In this document: piece by piece, positions 1 to 22,420 of the stretch
How positions within the stretch are numbered: the first letter of the stretch is position 1
How the letters are laid out: the number at the start of each line of letters is the position of its first letter
Origin: an uncultured Pelagibacteraceae bacterium
GTDB lineage: Bacteria; Pseudomonadota; Alphaproteobacteria; Pelagibacterales; AG-422-B15
DNA length: 64,000 nt
Reading direction: 5' to 3'
NCBI GenBank assembly: GCA_902590345.1
Contig: CACIWK010000004.1
Span: 1-64,000, forward strand
Translations under genes and position numbers: made by a program
Notes under the pieces: model-generated
Seen by the model: only the letters and a program-made list of their open reading frames with translations
The model's database searches: none
What the model was told of the DNA's origin: nothing

Positions 1-751
1 TGGAGATGAAGGAATAAAAAAATGGCTTGAACAACTTCATTATAAAGGGATTTCAATCGTGAAGAATGCACCCACTGAAAAAGAGTCAGGTTTTGATGTT
101 CTATCTAATATAAGTCATCATAGAGAAACTTTTTTTAAAACACCATTTGAAGTAATCGACATTCCTAATCCAAATAATTCAGCATATACAGCTGCAGCTC
201 TAAGAAATCACATCGACTTACCATATTATGAAATTGCTCCTGGCTACCAGTTCCTTCATTGTTTAATAAACGATGCAACCGGTGGTGAGTCAGTTGCGTT
301 AGATGGATTTAGAGTTGCAAGCTATATGAAAGAAAATTTTACTGAATACTTCAAGATTCTTCTTGATACACCTGTAAAATTTGTAAATAGAGATTACACC
401 GCAAACACAATTAGAGTAATGCATAAACCCATATTTACTCTAGATCACAACAATGATTTTAATGATATACGGTTTAGCGTTGCTTATATGGGAATAATGG
501 ATTGCAGTCCTGAAGTTATGGATAGCTTCTATGAAGCATATCGTAAACTTCTTTCATTGCTACATGACCCTATGTTTGAAATCAATTTCAGATTAGAAGC
601 TGGAGACATTTTTAGCTTTAATAACAGAAGAGTCTTGCATGGCAGGAAAGAATATGATGCCAATTCAGGTAATAGACACCTCCAAGGATATTATATTGAT
701 AGGGATGAGATCGTGGGTAGATTAAATTATTTGAATAGAATTAATCCTTAG
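1..751 (+). CDS. gamma-butyrobetaine dioxygenase / TauD-family 2OG-Fe(II) oxygenase, 5'-truncated by window edge
   Basis: Frame stays open to base 2 upstream of the listed GTG (GDEGIKKWLEQLHYKGISIVKNAPTE...); conserved LHCL..ATGGES..DGF and NRRVLHGR motifs of the BBOX family. Confidence 0.85.
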   Translation, partial: GDEGIKKWLEQLHYKGISIVKNAPTEKESGFDVLSNISHHRETFFKTPFEVIDIPNPNNSAYTAAALRNHIDLPYYEIAPGYQFLHCLINDATGGESVALDGFRVASYMKENFTEYFKILLDTPVKFVNRDYTANTIRVMHKPIFTLDHNNDFNDIRFSVAYMGIMDCSPEVMDSFYEAYRKLLSLLHDPMFEINFRLEAGDIFSFNNRRVLHGRKEYDANSGNRHLQGYYIDRDEIVGRLNYLNRINP

Positions 752-1766
752 ATTTTTGCAAAATATCTATAATTTTGTTTTTTGATACTGAGCCAACAAA
801 GTTGTTTTTCTCATCAATTACGTTAAGACCCGATTGACTTTCAAGTATCGCCGGCAAGCAATTTTCAATACTATCATTTACGTTTACAGTTGGATTAGAA
901 TTTGCTCGTTCACCTCCTTGGTCAAGAATTGTCTTGATTTTTAAAACCTTTATACGATTAACATCCTTAACAAAATTGGCCACATATTGATCAGCAGGTT
1001 TTAAAAGAATTTCCTCTGCATTTCCATCTTGAACAAGTTTTCCACCATTGAGTATAGCTATTCGGTCGCCTAATTTGAGTGCCTCATCGAGGTCATGAGT
1101 TATGAACATAATTGTTTTATTTAAATTCTTTTGTAAGTCCAGTAATTGGTCCTGCATATCAGTTCTTATTAATGGATCAAGCGCACTAAAGGCTTCGTCC
1201 ATTAGCAATATATCTGGATCAGTAGCTAACGCCCTAGCTAAACCTACTCTTTGCTGCATTCCTCCTGACAATTGATTTGGGAATTTATTTTCAAAACCAG
1301 TTAAACCAACTTTTTCAATCCAATACATTGCTCTTTCTATAGAGTCTGACTTATCTAGATTTTTTATGCTCAATCCAAACTGGACATTGTCTAATATATT
1401 TTGATGAGGAAATAGTGCAAAGCGTTGAAAAACCATCCCTGTTTTATTTCTTCTAAACTCTAGAAGATCCATTTTATTAAGTTTAGTAATATCCTCTCCA
1501 TCAACTGTAACCGTTCCCTCGGTTGGTTCAATCAATCTATTAATGTGTCTTATCAAAGTAGATTTTCCTGACCCTGATAATCCCATTACAACTTGTATTG
1601 AATGCTCATTGATATCTAGAGAAATATTATCCAACCCAAGAACATGATTATATTTTGATAATAACTCGTCTTTATCAACACCGTCTCTAACTATGTCTGT
1701 GTACTCTCTTGGTCTTGATCCAAAAATTTTATACAAATTTTCTATCTTAATCTTTATCTCACTCAT
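741..1766 (-). CDS. Quaternary-amine (glycine betaine/choline/TMAO-type) ABC transporter ATP-binding protein
   Basis: Walker A GLSGSGKST, LSGGMQQRVGLARAL signature, LLMDEAFSALDPL; ProV-like. Start refined to MSEIKIK, which overlaps the permease stop by 8 nt. Confidence 0.9.
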   Translation of the reverse strand: MSEIKIKIENLYKIFGSRPREYTDIVRDGVDKDELLSKYNHVLGLDNISLDINEHSIQVVMGLSGSGKSTLIRHINRLIEPTEGTVTVDGEDITKLNKMDLLEFRRNKTGMVFQRFALFPHQNILDNVQFGLSIKNLDKSDSIERAMYWIEKVGLTGFENKFPNQLSGGMQQRVGLARALATDPDILLMDEAFSALDPLIRTDMQDQLLDLQKNLNKTIMFITHDLDEALKLGDRIAILNGGKLVQDGNAEEILLKPADQYVANFVKDVNRIKVLKIKTILDQGGERANSNPTVNVNDSIENCLPAILESQSGLNVIDEKNNFVGSVSKNKIIDILQKSKD

Positions 1767-2655
1767 TTGCGCCAGCCCTATATTGCTGCATTCTTTTACC
1801 AAATGACTGGGAAACCCTGTCAAATATGATCGCCAAAGCTACAATAGCCAAACCATTGAGAAGGCCCATGGTAAAATATTGATTGGTGATGGCTTTTAAG
1901 ACTGGTTGTCCCAATCCTTTAACCCCAATCATTGAAGCAATAACTACCATTGCAAGTGCCATCATTATTGTTTGATTAATGCCAGCAAAAATTGTTGGTA
2001 AAGCTAACGGAAGCTGTACTCTAAATAATTTCTGAGTTCTATTTGCACCAAATGCATCTGCGGCTTCTAAAACCTCTTTATTAACTTCTCTAATACCAAG
2101 ATCAGTAAGTCGAATTATTGGCGGGATTGCATAGATTATCACTGCAAGTAAACCAGGAATTTTACCAATACCCAATAACATAACAACTGGAATGAGATAC
2201 ACAAAACTTGGCATCGTTTGCATAATATCTAAAATTGGAGTAATTGCGGCTCTCGCTCTATCAGATCCTGACATTAATATGCCAATTGGTATACCTAGGC
2301 CGATAGACATTAGTGTGCAAACACCAATAATACTAACTGTGGACATCGTATCATCCCACATTCCAAAATATCCAATTAATAAAAAAGCAATTAAAGATGA
2401 AATAGTTAGAGCGACGCTTCTACTTCCATAATAAATCAATAATAAGAAAACGATTATTACCGCAGGCCATGGAGAATTTTGTAGTATTTTTTCAAACCAT
2501 ACTAAGAAATAAAGTACTGGATCAAAGACCGCTTCGATTGCATCGCCGTATTCACGTGAAAAGTTTCGGTAAGCGCCATCAAGAGACTTCTTGAACAAGC
2601 GAAGACTCTCCTTACTCATTTCAGGAAATGAAATAAAAAATTCGGTAAAATTCAT
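1759..2655 (-). CDS. Quaternary-amine ABC transporter permease (ProW/OpuAB-like)
   Basis: Hydrophobic; binding-protein-dependent permease EAA-like region EAADAFGANRTQKLFRVQLPLALPTI. Confidence 0.9.
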   Translation of the reverse strand: MNFTEFFISFPEMSKESLRLFKKSLDGAYRNFSREYGDAIEAVFDPVLYFLVWFEKILQNSPWPAVIIVFLLLIYYGSRSVALTISSLIAFLLIGYFGMWDDTMSTVSIIGVCTLMSIGLGIPIGILMSGSDRARAAITPILDIMQTMPSFVYLIPVVMLLGIGKIPGLLAVIIYAIPPIIRLTDLGIREVNKEVLEAADAFGANRTQKLFRVQLPLALPTIFAGINQTIMMALAMVVIASMIGVKGLGQPVLKAITNQYFTMGLLNGLAIVALAIIFDRVSQSFGKRMQQYRAGANE

Positions 2656-2703
2656 ATAAATATGCGGACTATATTTCTATAGTCCGCAATATTATTTTTT
2701 TAA

Positions 2704-3720
2704 TTATAACGCTGCTTCAATTTTAGCTTTTGCATTACCGTCGACCCAGCTGTGCCATTCTGTATAGTTTTTCAGAAAATGTATAGCTGTGTCTTCGCCA
2801 GATGCTTGATTGTCATCTTTCCAAGCTAATAAAGCATTAACAGTGCTGTTTGGAAGTGCTCTTTTTGAAATGTATTCCATTCCAAGTTCAGAACTATTTT
2901 TAAAGTTATCAGTGACAACAGTGTATACTTCAGAAACAACCCATGCGTTAGGTTTTGGATCTGCACATCCGTCTTGAGAAGTACAATTGTCCCACTCTTC
3001 TTTACTGTGTTCAACACCAAAGCTTAGTTTCTTGAGAGGATATTTGCCAAGAACTGCTGTAGGAGCCCAATAGTATCCTAGCCATCCCTCTTCTTTATTA
3101 TATGCTTCACCGATAGCACCGGCTAATGCACCACCTGATCCAGGATCAACTAGTCTCCATCCCTTTGCTTCCATATCATATGCTTTAAAGAGATTTCCAG
3201 TACTAATTTGACAGTTCCAACCTGATGGACACGTATAAATTGCTCCATTTCCACCTTCCGGATGAGGGAAAAGTTCAGGGCGCTCTATAACGTCATAAAC
3301 TGTTTGGATATCAGGATTTGCATCAGCCATGTACTGAGGAATCCACCATCCTTCTTCACCGGTGTCAGACAATACCTCAGCTGCATAATGCAAACGACCT
3401 TCACCTACTGCATTATCTAAAGCTAGACGAACTGCATTAATCCATAGCTCAGGAGCTACATCCGGCTCACCTTTTTCCATCATTGATGTTGCTGTTGGCA
3501 TAGTATCGCCAGGTACAAGTTCAACATTACAACCATACCCATTTTCTAATACCATTTTATCTACATGAGCAAACATTTCGGCTGATGCCCAATTCATTTC
3601 TGCTACAGTAATTGTGCCACAATCAGCAACTTCCTGATTCCTGTCACAACTAACTGCAAAAATAACTGCAAAACCTGCTAAAAATATTCCAATTGCAGAT
3701 TTTTTAAAAAATTTATTCAT
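2704..3720 (-). CDS. Quaternary-amine ABC transporter substrate-binding protein (ProX/OpuAC-like)
   Basis: Signal peptide with lipobox-like AVSC; periplasmic OpuAC-type sequence (VAEMNWASAEMFAHVDKMVLE...PELWINAV). Confidence 0.88.
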   Translation of the reverse strand: MNKFFKKSAIGIFLAGFAVIFAVSCDRNQEVADCGTITVAEMNWASAEMFAHVDKMVLENGYGCNVELVPGDTMPTATSMMEKGEPDVAPELWINAVRLALDNAVGEGRLHYAAEVLSDTGEEGWWIPQYMADANPDIQTVYDVIERPELFPHPEGGNGAIYTCPSGWNCQISTGNLFKAYDMEAKGWRLVDPGSGGALAGAIGEAYNKEEGWLGYYWAPTAVLGKYPLKKLSFGVEHSKEEWDNCTSQDGCADPKPNAWVVSEVYTVVTDNFKNSSELGMEYISKRALPNSTVNALLAWKDDNQASGEDTAIHFLKNYTEWHSWVDGNAKAKIEAAL

Positions 3721-14282: not shown

Positions 14283-15368
14283 CTAGTAATGCTCTATAAA
14301 TTTTGTCCAATTTTTAGAAATGGCCAAATTTTTAGTCTTATTAGGTTTAGATATGTTGTTCTCAGAATGAATATTTACCACTCCCTTCTGCCCAACAAAT
14401 GTGCAACTATTTAATGTACGCTTAAAGCTTTTTTCTTTCACAATTGAATTTATCAATTCTTGTACTGATCGCGATCTAGGCACTTTATTGCTTTTTCCAG
14501 CAAATCTGCAAAGTTTTACAAGTACTCTATGTTGAATTTCTTCGGGTAAGTTTATAAATTCCTGAGACTTAAAACTAATAATTTTCTTTTGATTGAGTTT
14601 TACTTGTTCATCTAAGTAATTGCTAACTGCAGTATTAATTGCGGTATCTGCACTTTTTAAATTCTTTAAGACGTTTTTAAACCTGACTTTACTGAGACCT
14701 TCATGTATTAATTGTTGAGATAACTTTCGAATACGAGACCTATCATACTTATTATTATAATTCGTTCTGTCGTTTATATAAACTTGCTTTTGCTCAGATA
14801 AATACGCAACAAGAGATTTTTTTGAGTACTCGAGTAATGGCCTAACTAAAATTAACTTTGTATTCTTATATCTAGATTTTACTTTTAATGATGAAAGTCC
14901 TTTTACACCACTGCCCCTTATTAATCTCATTAAAAAATTTTCTATTTCGTCATCAAGATGATGAGCTGTTAATAAGAATTTAATTTTTTTCTTGTTACAA
15001 TATTTTGATAAGGCCTCATATCGAAGTGTCCTTGCCTTGGAAAGGGTATTAGAGCTGTTGATCTTTTTTTTTAATTTAGTTGAGTAGAAGTTAATTTTAT
15101 TCTTTTTTGCGACTTTTTTTAACCATATAATTTCTTTTGATGACTCTGCTCTAATTCCATGATCAATACTTAATACAGTTAAATTAATATTATTATTTAA
15201 TGCATATCTATTAGACAAATGCATGAGCGCTAAACTATCTGGACCACCAGAAACTGCTACGGCAATATCTGAATTAACTCGAAGTTCTCTCATCTTTGCT
15301 TCGAAATCTTGATTAGTTATTTTTACGACTTTTTTATGATTAATTGGCTTAACTAATTTCACAGCCAT
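14283..15368 (-). CDS. tilS: tRNA(Ile)-lysidine synthetase
   Basis: SGGPDSLALMHL PP-loop, AHHLDDEIENFLMRLIRGSGVKGL. Confidence 0.92.
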   Translation of the reverse strand: MAVKLVKPINHKKVVKITNQDFEAKMRELRVNSDIAVAVSGGPDSLALMHLSNRYALNNNINLTVLSIDHGIRAESSKEIIWLKKVAKKNKINFYSTKLKKKINSSNTLSKARTLRYEALSKYCNKKKIKFLLTAHHLDDEIENFLMRLIRGSGVKGLSSLKVKSRYKNTKLILVRPLLEYSKKSLVAYLSEQKQVYINDRTNYNNKYDRSRIRKLSQQLIHEGLSKVRFKNVLKNLKSADTAINTAVSNYLDEQVKLNQKKIISFKSQEFINLPEEIQHRVLVKLCRFAGKSNKVPRSRSVQELINSIVKEKSFKRTLNSCTFVGQKGVVNIHSENNISKPNKTKNLAISKNWTKFIEHY

Positions 15369-16383
15369 TTTTTTCGATTTCTAATTTACCCCTGTCTAAT
15401 ACAGCAGTATTCGCGTTTGGATAGGTGTCCTTTAATTGTATAAAAGTTACACACCCTTGTTCTTTTTGGTCCATATTTACTAAAGATATTCCGAGTTTTA
15501 AAAGTGCATCTGCGGCTTTCTTTGAATCTGGATAAACTTGGTATAGGCTTAAATAATTTTTAGCTGCGTCTTTAAAATTTTCTCTAACATAATAAGTTTC
15601 TGCTAACCAGAAGTTTGCGTTGCTTAAAAGACTGGAATCATTTCCAACAGTCATAAATTCTTGAAATGCTTTTTCAGCAAGTTCGTAGTCACCTTGCTTG
15701 AGAAGACCCATTGCGTATTCATATTGACCTTTTTCATCTCCTTCAGGCAGCACCGCTAGTACAATTTCTTGTTCTTCAAAAGCGACAATATTATCCTGAG
15801 AAATGGTATCTATAATTTCTTGCTCTTCTTCTTCATCAACTTTTTTGATTTCAAATGGAGAAGCAGACAACTCCTCTTCTGAAGACACATTTATTGTTCC
15901 AAGTGACTGAGGTTCTAAAGTTACTTCCCCACTCGTGTTACCTACTAAGTTATTAGTTTGTGTTTCATTATTGGGTAATGCCATAGATAATTGGTTTTTT
16001 TCTATACTTTCAGTTTTAGAATTTATATCGATAAACCTAAACTCAGTATCTTCTCTAAATGTATTAAAATTATTTACTGTAGATTGCATTGTAAATATCA
16101 TTTCTTCGATTTTTGCTGTCAGTGATTGGACTTCATTTTGTAATTCAGCTATCTGAATAGATTGTTTTGTAATAATTGATTGGTAATCATCAAGACTAAC
16201 ATTATTGCCAACGCCAGAGGTCGTTTTGCTAAATGTTGCCTTTTCAAGAACCTTTATTCTGCTTTCAATTGAGTCTAATTTTTGCAACAACTGATCTACA
16301 TCTAGTTCTTCAGATTGAACATGAACAATCTGCACTAATGAGATAAGGATAAAAAAGAAAATAAATTGAATTCTTTTGAGCAT
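15349..16383 (-). CDS. cpoB: Tol-pal system protein YbgF/CpoB
   Basis: Signal peptide, coiled coil, C-terminal TPR (YEYAMGLLKQGDYELAEKAFQEFM); position in tol-pal cluster. Confidence 0.88.
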   Translation of the reverse strand: MLKRIQFIFFFILISLVQIVHVQSEELDVDQLLQKLDSIESRIKVLEKATFSKTTSGVGNNVSLDDYQSIITKQSIQIAELQNEVQSLTAKIEEMIFTMQSTVNNFNTFREDTEFRFIDINSKTESIEKNQLSMALPNNETQTNNLVGNTSGEVTLEPQSLGTINVSSEEELSASPFEIKKVDEEEEQEIIDTISQDNIVAFEEQEIVLAVLPEGDEKGQYEYAMGLLKQGDYELAEKAFQEFMTVGNDSSLLSNANFWLAETYYVRENFKDAAKNYLSLYQVYPDSKKAADALLKLGISLVNMDQKEQGCVTFIQLKDTYPNANTAVLDRGKLEIEKNGCEIS

Positions 16384-16455
16384 TAAATTAATCAAACCTA
16401 ACCTTAATTAAAAGATTAAGCTTATCTTTTTGTCTAAAAAAAGGCGTCTAATAAA

Positions 16456-16983
16456 TTAGTTGGTTCTTACTGTTACAGAACGTCTATTTTGAGCCCATGC
16501 TTTATTATTAGATGCACTGTTAACTGGTCTTTCCTTACCAAAACTAATAGTAGTGATTCGACTAGCACTTATGCCCTGCGTCATTAAATAATCTTTAGCT
16601 GCATTTGCTCTTCTATCACCTAGGGCTAAGTTATACTCTCTTGTACCCCTTTCGTCAGCGTGACCTTCAATAGCAATAGTTACTGATCCATTTGACTTTA
16701 ACCATTTTGCTTGTTTAGCTAAAGTTGCCTGAGCTGCGCTTGTTAGTGAATAACTATCATATGCAAAGAACACTCTGTCCGGCACATCAACAGCAAGCAT
16801 TTCTACTGTATCAGTACCAACATAAACTCCGTCTACGACTTCGACTTTAGAAGCTGAACTTGATGATGATGATGATGATGATGTAGATGCAGTATCTTGC
16901 GGTGTTGTAGTACATGCAGCTAGAATGATTGCTGCAAAAGATAAAACTAAAAACCTATTTAAATTTTTAAATGTAAATAACAT
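16456..16983 (-). CDS. pal: Peptidoglycan-associated lipoprotein
   Basis: Lipobox LAAC; OmpA-like GHADERGTREYNLALGDRRA; start refined to MLFTFKN. Confidence 0.93.
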   Translation of the reverse strand: MLFTFKNLNRFLVLSFAAIILAACTTTPQDTASTSSSSSSSSSASKVEVVDGVYVGTDTVEMLAVDVPDRVFFAYDSYSLTSAAQATLAKQAKWLKSNGSVTIAIEGHADERGTREYNLALGDRRANAAKDYLMTQGISASRITTISFGKERPVNSASNNKAWAQNRRSVTVRTN

Positions 16984-17104
16984 TATAAACTCCCGTAATA
17001 TTTGATCGCCCAAGTCCTAGTACTTTATTAATTTAAGTTACGCAAGTCTATAATAAAATAGCTGAGAATTGATTAAAATGGTCCTATTTTAGTCGAAAAA
17101 TTGA

Positions 17105-18427
17105 CTATTGTATCAATTTCGACCATGATGGGTCTGACGCATCAACTGGAGTTTCAAGCTTTCTCTCATTAAATCCTGTAAGATCAATTGACCAGATTGC
17201 CGAGGAATGGCCCTGACCTGCGTCATTAGACTTAGTTTCTCTATAAAATATCAAAACTCTTCCATTAGAAGACCAAGAAGGAGCCTCTTGATACCAATTT
17301 TCAGTTAAAAGTCTCTCTCCAGTTCCATCTGTTCTCATAACTCCAATAAAATATTGTCCCTGAAAATTTTTTGTAAAAGCAATAAGATCACCCCTTGGTG
17401 ACCATACAGGTGTAGCATAATTACCTGATCCTTTAGAAATTCTTTTTTGGTTTCTGCCATTACTATCCATTACATAAATCTGTTGCGATCCACCTCTATC
17501 AGAGTTGAATGTAATTCTTTTGCCATCTGGAGAATAACTTGGTGATGTATCAATTGCGGGGCTGTCAGTTAACCTTTCAACTACTCTGGAAACTAAATCC
17601 ATTACATATATGTCTGAATTACCTTCTCTAGCCAAACTCATGATGATCTTATTTCCATCTGGAGAAAAACGTGGTGCGAATGTCATACCAGGAAAGTCTC
17701 CTACCACTTCTTGAATACCTGTTTGGATGTTTAATAAATATACTCGCGGAAGATTTTTAAAATAAGATAAATAGGTAATCTCTTGTCTTACTGGATTAAA
17801 TCTTGGAGTCAAAACAAGTTCTTTACCTGTAGTCAAAAATTTATGATTTGCTCCGTCCTGGTCCATTATCGCAAGTTTCTTAATTCGTTTATTTTTAGGT
17901 CCTTCTTCAGCAACATAAACTATTCTAGTATCAAAATAACCCTGCTCACCAGTAAGGCGCTCATATATCTTATCTGCAATCATGTGGCTAATTCTTCTCC
18001 AATTTTCTATTGTCGTAATTAGGACAAGTCCCTCTATTTCCTTTTCAGCTAGCGTGTCCCAAAGTCTAAACTCTACTCGAAGTCTCTCATTTTCAATCGA
18101 TAGCTCACCTGTTAATAATCCCTGAGCCTTTATTAATCTCCAATCTGCAAAACGTGGATTTAAATGCATTGCTCTATTTTTTTGAATAAATGCATTTTCA
18201 TCTACAGATAAAAATAATCCGCTTCTCTCTAAGTCATCAGCTATAACTTTACGGATGCTTGATGGTATATTTTGGTCATCTAGAATACTTTCTGTGTCAT
18301 GAAAAAATTCAGTAATAGCAATTGGCAGAGGTTCCCTATTGCCTTCAGTAATATCAATTTCAATAATAGCGAATGAAATAGATGAAAAATGAAGAGCTAT
18401 TACGATGTATAAAATTATTTTTTTCAT
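17105..18427 (-). CDS. tolB: Tol-Pal translocation protein TolB
   Basis: Beta-propeller repeats ([22 protein letters not shown]), TolB N-domain, synteny. Confidence 0.95.
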
Positions 18428-18433
18428 AATAAA

Positions 18434-19246
18434 TTATCCTCTTAGTATCTCTCTAGGATCAAAATTCAACTGTAAATTTTTCCAATTGTCATATCTTTCA
18501 ATATCCGGAACTTTTATTGGATCACAACGTCTTACTGCTCTTAGGGCACTTTCAGCAAGGGTTCTAAAATATTTTTCGCTAGGCTTATTCATCCTTTCGT
18601 GTTGAACAACCTCAGGTGGTTTAAGCAAAGAACCATCAGTATTTAAGTAAATCTTAATTTTAACGATCATTGTATCATCATATGGAATTCCAAGAGGTAT
18701 GCTCCAGCATTGCATAAATTGAGCTCTGATAGCATCCTCCTCAGATAAAGTAAGTCGTTTGTCGAGACTAGGCGTTGAGTCTAACGCTTCATAATCTTTT
18801 TCTATAATTTCTTCAGGATTATCCATTTTTGTATCTTTTTGTTTATCGATTAACTCGGCTAATTTAAGAGGATCAAATTTGTCTTTTTTCTTAACTTCAG
18901 GTTTTCGTACAGGCATATTTTGAATCATTTTTTCTTCTAATTTTGTCTTTTCAATTTTTTCTTCATCGCTCGGGTCTTGTACTTTTTCATTGGATTTTTC
19001 ATCTTTGGGTTTACTTATTGTTTGGTTTAATTTTGTTTCTTCCTTCTTTTTTTCAACAGGTTCTTTTTGTTCTTCAATTTTTTTACTAATTTGTGGGACA
19101 TTTGTTTTTTCTGCGATTTCAATTAATTCAACTTGTATGACCGGTGGCATTTCCAAATCATTATTATTAAATAATGGCAAAGATAAGACCGTGAATAAAA
19201 GTATAAAAACGTGTAGAAATATTGACCCTAAAACAGAAATTCTCAT
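18434..19246 (-). CDS. tolA: TolA-like energy-transducing protein
   Basis: N-terminal TM, Lys/Glu-rich linker, C-terminal TolA/TonB-like domain; between tolB and tolR. Confidence 0.82.
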   Translation of the reverse strand: MRISVLGSIFLHVFILLFTVLSLPLFNNNDLEMPPVIQVELIEIAEKTNVPQISKKIEEQKEPVEKKKEETKLNQTISKPKDEKSNEKVQDPSDEEKIEKTKLEEKMIQNMPVRKPEVKKKDKFDPLKLAELIDKQKDTKMDNPEEIIEKDYEALDSTPSLDKRLTLSEEDAIRAQFMQCWSIPLGIPYDDTMIVKIKIYLNTDGSLLKPPEVVQHERMNKPSEKYFRTLAESALRAVRRCDPIKVPDIERYDNWKNLQLNFDPREILRG

Positions 19247-19262
19247 ATATAAATAGCATTAA

Positions 19263-19667
19263 TTATTTACTTAATGGCTTAGTAATCAAAGCAACCTTTG
19301 TAAAACCAGAACCAGAAAGCTCTCCTAAAACTTTCATGATCTGTCCATAATCAATTGCTTCGTCTCCTCTAACATAAATTTTTGTATCAAGCCTATTTTC
19401 TGTTATTGCTTTCATTTTTGGAACTAGTTCGGAAATTCCTATTTCGGTCTCTTGAATAAATATATTACCGCTTGCATCAATTGTTACCTCAAGTGGTTCA
19501 TTGTCAGATTGTAAAGTATCAGCATTTGTTTCAGGTAAATCAACCTGAACTCCTACTGTTAACAAAGGAGCGGTTACCATAAAAATGATTAATAAAACCA
19601 ACATTACATCAACAAATGGTGTTACGTTAATTTCACTGAATGGTTTTGATCGAGTGTTACGTGTCAC
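19263..19667 (-). CDS. tolR: TolR/ExbD-family protein
   Basis: SEINVTPFVDVMLVLLIIFMVTAPLL. Confidence 0.95.
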   Translation of the reverse strand: MTRNTRSKPFSEINVTPFVDVMLVLLIIFMVTAPLLTVGVQVDLPETNADTLQSDNEPLEVTIDASGNIFIQETEIGISELVPKMKAITENRLDTKIYVRGDEAIDYGQIMKVLGELSGSGFTKVALITKPLSK

Positions 19668-19680
19668 AATTTAAAAATTT

Positions 19681-20394
19681 CTATTTCGTACTCAAGCCTC
19701 TTGAGAAAATGACATTAAAATGTTCTTTAAATCGATACATTCTTGCATTTTCATCATTCACCTGACTAGTAAATATATTGTAGGCTATAACAGCTGGTAT
19801 TGCTGCTAATAAACCTAGAGCTGTTGCAAATAATGCTTCAGCTATTCCAGGAGCAACTACTGCAAGGGAGGTATTTCTTGAAATAGCAATAGATTGAAAA
19901 GAATTCATTATACCCCAGACCGTTCCAAATAATCCAATAAATGGAGTCGTAGCTCCTATTGTTGCCAAATAACTAAAGTATTCGGATAGCTTCTCATTTT
20001 GAAAATCTATTGCTGCCTCCATAACACGATTTAATCTATCAACTAAACTATCTATTTTTTTTGTAGTTTCCTGATTAGACTTTTCAATCTCATCAACAGC
20101 TTCATTGAAAACATACTTAATTGGACTTTCTGGTAATTCTCTCGTGCTACTCGAGATTTCTTTTATTGATCTTCCCGACCAAAATTCTTCCTCAAACTGC
20201 TTACTGATTTCTTTTAAAGAACGAAATAAACGAATTTTATGAATTATTATAGTCCATGAGAAAATAGAAGAAGCAAACAGAATTAGAATTACTAGCTTTA
20301 CGACAATATCCGCTCTAAAAAAAAGTGAAATTAATGTAAACTCATCGTTTACTTGGCTAACACTTACTAAATCTTCGTTTTCCATAATTTTCAA
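19681..20394 (-). CDS. tolQ: TolQ/ExbB-family proton channel
   Basis: LATIGATTPFIGLFGTVWGIMNSF; VAPGIAEALFATALGLLAAIPAVIAYN. Confidence 0.95.
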   Translation of the reverse strand: MKIMENEDLVSVSQVNDEFTLISLFFRADIVVKLVILILFASSIFSWTIIIHKIRLFRSLKEISKQFEEEFWSGRSIKEISSSTRELPESPIKYVFNEAVDEIEKSNQETTKKIDSLVDRLNRVMEAAIDFQNEKLSEYFSYLATIGATTPFIGLFGTVWGIMNSFQSIAISRNTSLAVVAPGIAEALFATALGLLAAIPAVIAYNIFTSQVNDENARMYRFKEHFNVIFSRGLSTK

Positions 20395-20428: not shown

Positions 20429-20809
20429 CTAAAGTCCTTTTTTACTAATAATTAATATTCGATAAAGTTCTATGAAGTCGTCAAGTTTCAAAACACAAAG
20501 TGAGTCCCCTGTTGCCTCTCGATTTCTTCTCGTTATAACAACCGGCATTGAGTCTGATTTAGATGTTTCAATATTTTCGCATACTTGTCTCATTGACTCA
20601 TGAATTTTGAACTTTTCAGTTCTTTTAGCTTCGACGTATATATGAGGAGTATTTTTTAAATCGCTACCTCCAGAAGATTTGATAGCACCACCACCTGACA
20701 AAGGCATACGTTGAACTTTATCTTCTCCATTAAAAATCTTCTCATTAAAGTACTTCGCAAGCTCTCTCTCGTATCCATCACCTTTTCTTTTTGGAGAACT
20801 ACCTGGCAT
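20429..20809 (-). CDS. PDDEXK-type nuclease resembling archaeal/phage Holliday junction resolvase (Hjc-like)
   Basis: KGDGYERELAKYF (Glu), MPLSGGG..SSGGSDL (Asp), YVEAKRTEKFKI (ExK): catalytic arrangement of Hjc-like restriction-fold nucleases. Confidence 0.7.
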   Translation of the reverse strand: MPGSSPKRKGDGYERELAKYFNEKIFNGEDKVQRMPLSGGGAIKSSGGSDLKNTPHIYVEAKRTEKFKIHESMRQVCENIETSKSDSMPVVITRRNREATGDSLCVLKLDDFIELYRILIISKKGL

Positions 20810-20875: not shown

Positions 20876-21619
20876 TTAAGCAAACTTTGCTAATTCTTCG
20901 TCTGATGCCTCAAAATTTGAAAAGACTTGTTGAACATCCTCATCATTATCAAGTTCATTTAGCAAGTTAATAAGGGATTTAAGTTTATCTCCCTCAATTG
21001 CTACATACGTAACAGGTTTCCATTGGAAACCTGATGATACAGGTTCACCAAATTTTTTATCTAAATAATTATATAAATTTGACAGATTTTCCGGCGTGGA
21101 TACTGCTTCATAAGTATCTTCTTCGATAAAACAATCTTCAGCTCCACCCTCAATTGAAAAGTTGAAAAAATCTTCTTCGCTTGTCACGTCTTTGTTGTAA
21201 CGTACAAAACCATAATGATTAAATGCATGGGAGACTGAACCTGTTTCGCCCATTGAACCTCCAAATTTTTGAAATGCAGATCTTACATTTGAGGCTGTTC
21301 TATTTCGATTATCTGTAAGTGCCTCGACAATTATCGAGGTTCCGTTTGGACCAAATCCTTCGTACCTCATTTGATCATAGTTAACAGTATCTTTATCCAA
21401 TGATTTTTTTATCGCTCTATCGATATTTTCTTTTGGAAAACTTGAGGCTTTTGCTAATTGTATAGCTGATCTTAATCTCGCATTTTGATCAGGATCAGGT
21501 GCACCCAGCTTAGCTGCTACTGTAATTTCCTTTGAAAGTTTAGAAAATAAACTGGCTCTCTTTTTATCTTGTGCGCCTTTGCGATACATTATGTTTTTAA
21601 ATTTAGAGTGGCCTGCCAT
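20876..21619 (-). CDS. yebC: YebC/PmpR-family regulatory protein
   Basis: MAGHSKFKNIMYRKGAQDKKRASLFSKLSKEI; RYEGFGPNGTSIIVEALTDNRNRT. Confidence 0.96.
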   Translation of the reverse strand: MAGHSKFKNIMYRKGAQDKKRASLFSKLSKEITVAAKLGAPDPDQNARLRSAIQLAKASSFPKENIDRAIKKSLDKDTVNYDQMRYEGFGPNGTSIIVEALTDNRNRTASNVRSAFQKFGGSMGETGSVSHAFNHYGFVRYNKDVTSEEDFFNFSIEGGAEDCFIEEDTYEAVSTPENLSNLYNYLDKKFGEPVSSGFQWKPVTYVAIEGDKLKSLINLLNELDNDEDVQQVFSNFEASDEELAKFA

Positions 21620-22420
21620 TTAATTACCGATTTTTCCTCCAATACGGATTGGACTAATACTTTTTGCTAAATAGTTTTCAGTATTTGATTCTATGATAAC
21701 CCCACATAATGTTCCTTCGCCATCAGCCGGAGGTACCCTTTTTCGCTCAGTGTCTTGTGTAGCAAATTTTCTTACGAACTCCTCTTTTTTTGTGCCAATA
21801 ACTGAGTCATAGTCGCCACACATTCCAGCGTCAGTTTGAAAAGCTGTTCCATGTTCCATAATTGTTGCATCTGCCGTTGGAACGTGAGTATGAGTTCCAA
21901 CAACTGCTGTTACTCTTCCGTCAAGATGATGTCCCATTGCCATTTTTTCACTTGTAGCTTCAGCGTGAAAATCAACAAATATAAATGATAGATCTTCAGT
22001 TTTTAAATTTTTAAGAACTTCTTCAATTTTAAAAAATGCATTATCACACGATCTCATAAATAAATTCCCCATTAAATTTATTACCGCAATTTTTTGTCCA
22101 TTCTCATGCGTATAAGTATTTACACCTAAACCTGGGGTGCCTTCAGCAAAATTATAAGGCTTTAAAAGTTTATCATCTTTATCGATATAACTATTTATCT
22201 CTTTTTGATCCCACAAATGATTTCCAGTTGTGATTACATTAACTCCATAAGAGTATAATTCGTTGCATATTGGCTCTGTAATACCAAAGCCACCAGCAGA
22301 ATTTTCCCCATTAGCAATAACAAAATCTATATTATTATTTTTAATAGCGTCTGGTAGATGATCTCTCAAAGCATGTCTTCCAGATCGACCCATTACATCG
22401 CCTAAAAATAGAATTCTCAT
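21620..22420 (-). CDS. YmdB-family metallophosphoesterase (TIGR00282 type)
   Basis: MRILFLGDVMGRSGRHAL, NGENSAGGFGI, TGNHLWDQKEI, GTHTHVPTAD. Confidence 0.92.
   Translation of the reverse strand: MRILFLGDVMGRSGRHALRDHLPDAIKNNNIDFVIANGENSAGGFGITEPICNELYSYGVNVITTGNHLWDQKEINSYIDKDDKLLKPYNFAEGTPGLGVNTYTHENGQKIAVINLMGNLFMRSCDNAFFKIEEVLKNLKTEDLSFIFVDFHAEATSEKMAMGHHLDGRVTAVVGTHTHVPTADATIMEHGTAFQTDAGMCGDYDSVIGTKKEEFVRKFATQDTERKRVPPADGEGTLCGVIIESNTENYLAKSISPIRIGGKIGN

Follow-up and report, generated by a model that had tools for sequence, protein, structure and literature searches.

Nearly all free-living bacteria have RuvABC, and in many alphaproteobacteria its genes stand in the established order yebC-ruvC-ruvA-ruvB-ybgC-tolQ; the order at the E. 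coli locus is yebC-ruvC-ruvA-ruvB. Among the ocean's heterotrophic bacteria Pelagibacterales are the most abundant, and SAR11 shows high recombination despite its tiny genomes. Pfam groups phage putative PDDEXK endonucleases in family PDDEXK_15. Hjc-type enzymes carry the motifs Glu, Asp and Glu-x-Lys, and phage Hjc_15-6, whose motif reads E-SD-EVK, cleaves junctions (PMC8805305). Junction resolution by the chloroplast enzyme MOC1 has been proven (PMC7078210). RecU, the PD-(D/E)XK resolvase of bacterial chromosomes in Firmicutes, works with RuvAB, while the RuvC of phage bIL67 rescues delta-ruvABC E. coli, a precedent for a phage resolvase that acts without RuvAB in the cell (PMC3864405). The separate parts of what we report here, phage-type resolvases and non-orthologous displacement, are known, and their combination and the SAR11 setting were not found in the open-licence literature; nor did we find among open-licence papers any report on the RuvABC status of SAR11.

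We analyzed a stretch of 64,000 nucleotides (the window) in which a gene for a 126-aa nuclease lies between yebC and tolQ. A sequence-only reading had given the gene order as ymdB-yebC-[126-aa nuclease]-tolQ-tolR-tolA-tolB-pal-cpoB; the genes all lie on one strand, and Pfam confirmed the order, with matches downstream of tolQ to TolR/ExbD (4e-27), TolB_N (2e-27), Pal/OmpA (3e-23) and a CpoB-like TPR protein (7e-11); tolA had no Pfam match. The same reading had found no ruvC, ruvA, ruvB or ybgC in the yebC-tolQ interval, and this was borne out, with only 66 bp between the yebC stop and the nuclease start and 34 bp between the nuclease stop and the tolQ start. The nuclease resembles RuvABC of E. 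coli and most Alphaproteobacteria in its position directly after yebC and in its inferred job, but there is no homology between the RNase H-like RuvC and a PD-(D/E)XK nuclease, and the SAR11 genome has no RuvAB motor. A promoter scan gave a result no better than shuffles.

Features of the window and of the loci compared with it. Positions without a prefix are those of the window; a minus sign marks the reverse strand.
Feature	Positions	Strand	Remarks
126-aa PD-(D/E)XK nuclease (PDDEXK_15 / PHROG 244), proposed stand-alone Holliday junction resolvase	20429..20809	-	ATG start
Codon of Glu14 (motif I, YERELA)	20768..20770	-	Invariant in 63 SAR11 and viral relatives; corresponds to the Hjc motif I Glu by PMC8805305
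Codon of Asp50 (motif II, GGSD)	20660..20662	-	Invariant in 63 sequences
Codons of Glu60-Ala61-Lys62 (motif III, EAK)	20624..20632	-	Invariant in 63 sequences
yebC, upstream boundary of the resolvase slot	20876..21619	-	Pfam YebC 2e-47 and 3e-28
tolQ, downstream boundary of the resolvase slot	19681..20394	-	Pfam TolQ/MotA_ExbB 3e-35
ymdB, conserved upstream neighbour	21620..22420	-	Pfam YmdB 1e-102
tolR-tolA-tolB-pal-cpoB, downstream cluster, same direction	15349..19667	-	Pfam; tolA by position and character only
Sister-family RuvC-like genes	L068:1351-1848; L047:2928-3425		14 further loci
yebC-[phage-type RuvC-like]-ybgC-tolQ in G315	L294 (G315:C19), 248-3354		

The ORF is not a chance one, since its product scores above a Pfam cut-off and it is kept in 45 genomes with a median dN/dS of 0.09. 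The identity at which it is conserved in these 45 genomes, all of the window's family, ranged from 75 to 99%. The nuclease is under purifying selection and is more conserved than its neighbours: its median dN/dS compares with 0.11 for tolQ, 0.12 for yebC and 0.15 for ymdB, and its median amino acid identity of 0.79 with 0.70, 0.69 and 0.64, respectively.

The window protein matched PDDEXK_15 (PF24608) with 33.9 bits, above the Pfam gathering score of 27 bits, and PHROG 244 over residues 3-117 (1.2e-20), and each of these families matched all 63 relatives that we aligned (E ≤ 0.1 for PDDEXK_15). PHROG 244 is annotated 'RusA-like Holliday junction resolvase', yet it is PD-(D/E)XK and not of the RusA fold; RusA (PF05866) was not among the matches in the Pfam scan of the window protein, and the modelled fold is likewise PD-(D/E)XK. 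This and the other phage resolvase annotations rest on homology, and no biochemical activity of this exact nuclease family is known in the literature that we found. An NCBIfam scan returned a chance match only.

The motifs ERELAKYF, GGSD and VEAKR noted earlier are present, and with YERELA they supply E14, D50, E60 and K62, meeting the catalytic pattern of a Glu in helix 1, a motif II Asp and a motif III E-x-K. Residues invariant in the 63 SAR11 and viral sequences include E14, R34, S38-G41, G47, D50, E60-A-K-R63 and Q75. The phage proteins of PDDEXK_15 / PHROG 244, for example gp22 of CRP-810, share the invariant E, D and E-A-K; the SAR11 nuclease differs from them in that its gene is fixed in the chromosome of a cellular lineage, at the ruvC position, instead of belonging to a phage replication module.

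We built an AlphaFold2 model from the alignment of these 63 sequences (pLDDT 86.2, pTM 0.79, with low confidence mainly in residues 1-9 and 39-46) and compared it with the PDB by Foldseek. The 12 best matches were all archaeal Hjc/Hje (TM about 0.40-0.47), the best having an E-value of 0.010, a probability of 0.99 and a TM of 0.47, followed by a restriction enzyme and later by RecU and others. The predicted likeness to Hjc is moderate by E-value and consistent in identity; with Foldseek E-values of only about 0.01 and a TM of about 0.46, it identifies the superfamily and the closest shape but is not proof of substrate. The earlier reading had proposed a resolvase of Hjc or phage type. Its phage part is upheld by PDDEXK_15 and PHROG 244, and the fold comparison groups the protein with archaeal Hjc/Hje and not with an unrelated restriction family, but membership of Pfam Hjc (PF01870) itself did not hold, the window protein reaching 13.3 bits against a gathering score of 21.1. 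That model matched 20 of the 63 relatives at E ≤ 0.1 (best 0.0025). With Hjc/Hje and phage Hjc_15-6 (PF01870) the nuclease has in common the predicted fold, the motif order E - SD - ExK and a size of about 125 aa, whereas identity in the structural alignments is only 10-17% and its activity is inferred. RecU is also a PD-(D/E)XK enzyme, but Hjc/Hje outrank it as fold matches. Searches of the PDB by sequence added little, our A3 profile giving only a weak Hjc match (E 0.34) and phmmer nothing useful.

Viral relatives of the nuclease were numerous. At least 107 were confirmed in IMG/VR, of which we kept 80, with 43-56% identity in the best segment. The phage PDDEXK_15 / PHROG 244 proteins are homologous over the whole domain at 41-56% identity, and no viral relative was seen above 56%. 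The nearest named relative, gp22 of Roseobacter phage CRP-810, is 50% identical, is annotated Holliday junction resolvase, and its gene adjoins one for a primase-polymerase. In GTDB genomes the close relatives were all SAR11 records, AG-422-B15 included. The nucleases of the window's family formed one group against the viral sequences (support 97), which suits a single acquisition by the family. That the gene passed from phage to cell is an inference drawn from how widely its relatives occur among viruses; no rooted tree underlies it.

To place the locus among its relatives we used 198 genomes of Pelagibacterales, 149 of them near-complete: 54 from the window's family, inferred from record names to be AG-422-B15, which we take to be SAR11 clade II, and 144 from a sister family, probably Pelagibacteraceae. 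The order yebC-slot-tolQ was found in every locus mapped. The nuclease occurred in 45 of the 54 genomes of the window's family and in none of the 144 of the sister family. The nine genomes without it were the same nine that lacked a yebC match, so the locus is missing from those assemblies, and the nuclease was present in 45 of the 45 whose assembly holds yebC. This pattern is that of one evolutionary event, and the 45 genomes amount to few independent observations.

In the sister family the slot holds a different protein. In 16 of 16 yebC-tolQ loci read it was a RuvC-like protein of 162-165 aa with an N-terminal IDPG motif, matching PHROG 1770 'Holliday junction resolvase' at 1e-33 to 1e-37. 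A profile built from 11 of these proteins (A2) matched, among solved proteins, the chloroplast resolvase MOC1 at 3e-20 and bacterial RuvC at only 0.037; it matched 139 of the 144 sister-family genomes and none of the 54 of the window's family. The nuclease and the MOC1-type protein are therefore mutually exclusive between the two families; they share the slot and the lack of RuvAB and belong to different fold superfamilies. Thus yebC-tolQ is a conserved resolvase slot in which RuvC has given way to stand-alone resolvases of phage type and of two unrelated folds, and the exchange is a family-wide swap within an order that lacks RuvABC, not the oddity of one genome.

Several smaller observations concern the slot in the sister family. 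In three of its genera ybgC lies between the resolvase and tolQ; it is retained there in L067, L068, L070, L072 and L078 and is absent from the slot in other Pelagibacteraceae genera and in the window's family. In one locus (G137:C10:14998-15488) the RuvC-like gene is split over three matches with internal stops, either an assembly error or a broken gene. Two sister-family genomes, G147 and G110, gave weak PDDEXK_15 matches. We rejected the first as a slot nuclease, as it lies outside the slot beside a phage-type primase-like gene; the region (L045:3657-6274) encodes a different, 113-aa PD-(D/E)XK-like ORF next to a 759-aa phage-type primase/helicase-like protein and looks like a provirus or mobile element.

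We consider it very probable that the nuclease is a small, RuvAB-independent, phage-type PD-(D/E)XK (Hjc-like) Holliday junction resolvase that is chromosomal and stands in place of RuvABC, its activity being inferred and RusA, RecU and YqgF lying outside the genome-wide search. A homodimer would bind four-way junctions (dimer state and substrate are both inferred), and Glu14, Asp50, Glu60 and Lys62 would position Mg2+ for paired nicks across the junction. Such an enzyme would be structure-selective and Mg2+-dependent and would act without RuvAB; branch migration without RuvAB could fall to RecG, which is present, to spontaneous migration or perhaps to RadA.

The nuclease might instead have come from a phage as an endonuclease that acts on branched DNA or flaps in general, and stand next to yebC by accident, with junctions resolved by an unrecognised enzyme or by replication or RecG-only routes. 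Phage resolvases tend to accept many kinds of branched DNA (PMC3864405), the substrate cannot be read from the sequence, and an enzyme of one of the three families left out of the search could do the work. We nevertheless regard this as unlikely. It is hard to explain by accident that both the sister family and an outgroup genome described below carry a resolvase of a different fold in this slot, and the strong conservation of the nuclease in every member of the window's family also speaks against it.

The reading as a resolvase in place of RuvABC depends on what the rest of the genome holds. The window genome assembly (1.01 Mb in 28 contigs, 76% complete) proves little by itself, and we therefore searched all 198 genomes, by profiles only, for RuvA, RuvB and RuvC; the positive controls, E. 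coli and Caulobacter, were matched. RuvA matched in none of the 198 genomes. For RuvB (TIGR00635) none passed the cut-off of 299 bits, and most matches covered only a short part of a longer frame, which is what other AAA proteins would give. The Pfam RuvC model likewise passed its cut-off in none of the 198. RuvA, RuvB and canonical RuvC are absent across these genomes of the order, the window genome and 197 relatives alike, among them 12 members of the window's family with a completeness of 90% or more. RecG is kept, full-length in most genomes at about 620-659 bits, just under a very strict cut-off. This search had been set beforehand as the test that could refute the replacement of RuvABC, and it did not refute it; a genome-wide replacement stands, while the suggestion that RuvAB had merely been relocated gives way to genome-wide loss.

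Two matches needed separate judgement. A RuvB_N match in the window genome (29.1 with neighbours, against a Pfam domain cut-off of 27) was rejected as RuvB; the domain also matches all four archaeal controls. Total absence of RuvC proteins, concluded from the Pfam model alone, would have been misleading: a sub-threshold match beside yebC in G134 led to the divergent RuvC-like gene found throughout the sister family.

That oversight shows profile sensitivity to be a real issue, and with a window genome so incomplete it could be held that RuvABC is present but too diverged, or too often unassembled, to be seen. We find this very hard to credit. RuvB is among the best-conserved bacterial ATPases, yet its best score was 34.5 bits; the complete lack of RuvA extends over the near-complete genomes, the ancestral locus itself is intact and without ruvAB, and even the lineage-specific RuvC-like profile found nothing in the window's family. 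That the nuclease serves restriction, defence or a mobile element and was inserted by chance is scarcely tenable: viral relatives exist and Pfam HSDR_N and Mrr_cat each gave weak matches in 3 of the 63 relatives, but PADLOC had no match for the nuclease, the locus holds no methyltransferase or partner, and a mobile element fits neither the vertical retention at one position across the family, with the low dN/dS given above, nor a gene GC (0.357) resembling that of yebC (0.352).

Taking the nuclease as a stand-alone resolvase, we think it likely, with somewhat less assurance than for the enzyme itself, that Pelagibacterales abandoned RuvABC for RuvAB-independent resolvases of viral ancestry, which were exchanged at one slot between unrelated folds, a MOC1-like RuvC and an Hjc-like PD-(D/E)XK. 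In the inferred history, ruvAB would have been lost in the ancestor of the order and a phage-type RuvC-like resolvase captured at ruvC's place, with ybgC still downstream; one later swap in the window's family would have brought in the phage PDDEXK resolvase, with ybgC lost from the locus. The original proposal that the nuclease replaced RuvABC in situ is consequently supported as to the slot and the loss, but not as to direct displacement, which is not required because RuvAB loss is order-wide and the sister family has its MOC1-type resolvase in the same slot. The immediate predecessor of the nuclease may have been a MOC1-like resolvase and not RuvABC.

If true, a core recombination step can be run by a stand-alone nuclease in abundant free-living bacteria, which would offer a natural experiment on the need for RuvAB. 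The locus would also be a clear-cut example of in situ non-orthologous displacement and would give the uncharacterised phage nuclease family PDDEXK_15 an inferred function. Kinship with MOC1 would provide a bacterial relative of the chloroplast resolvase, and the MOC1-like protein of Pelagibacteraceae, a member of the RuvC superfamily missed by Pfam RuvC, may bear on the origin of that enzyme.

Outside the order, about 286 genomes of the class yielded only three matches to the A2 profile, two of them at loci that resemble prophages or mobile elements. The third, in G315 (1.2 Mb, 80% complete, of a different family), lies in the order ymdB-yebC-[RuvC-like]-ybgC-tolQ, and its RuvC-like protein is 32% identical; ruvAB is absent from this yebC-tolQ locus, a statement that covers the locus only and not the genome. 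A single origin of this protein with those of SAR11 was neither shown nor rejected (p-AU 0.44). G315, a non-SAR11 alphaproteobacterium, may have undergone this displacement independently.
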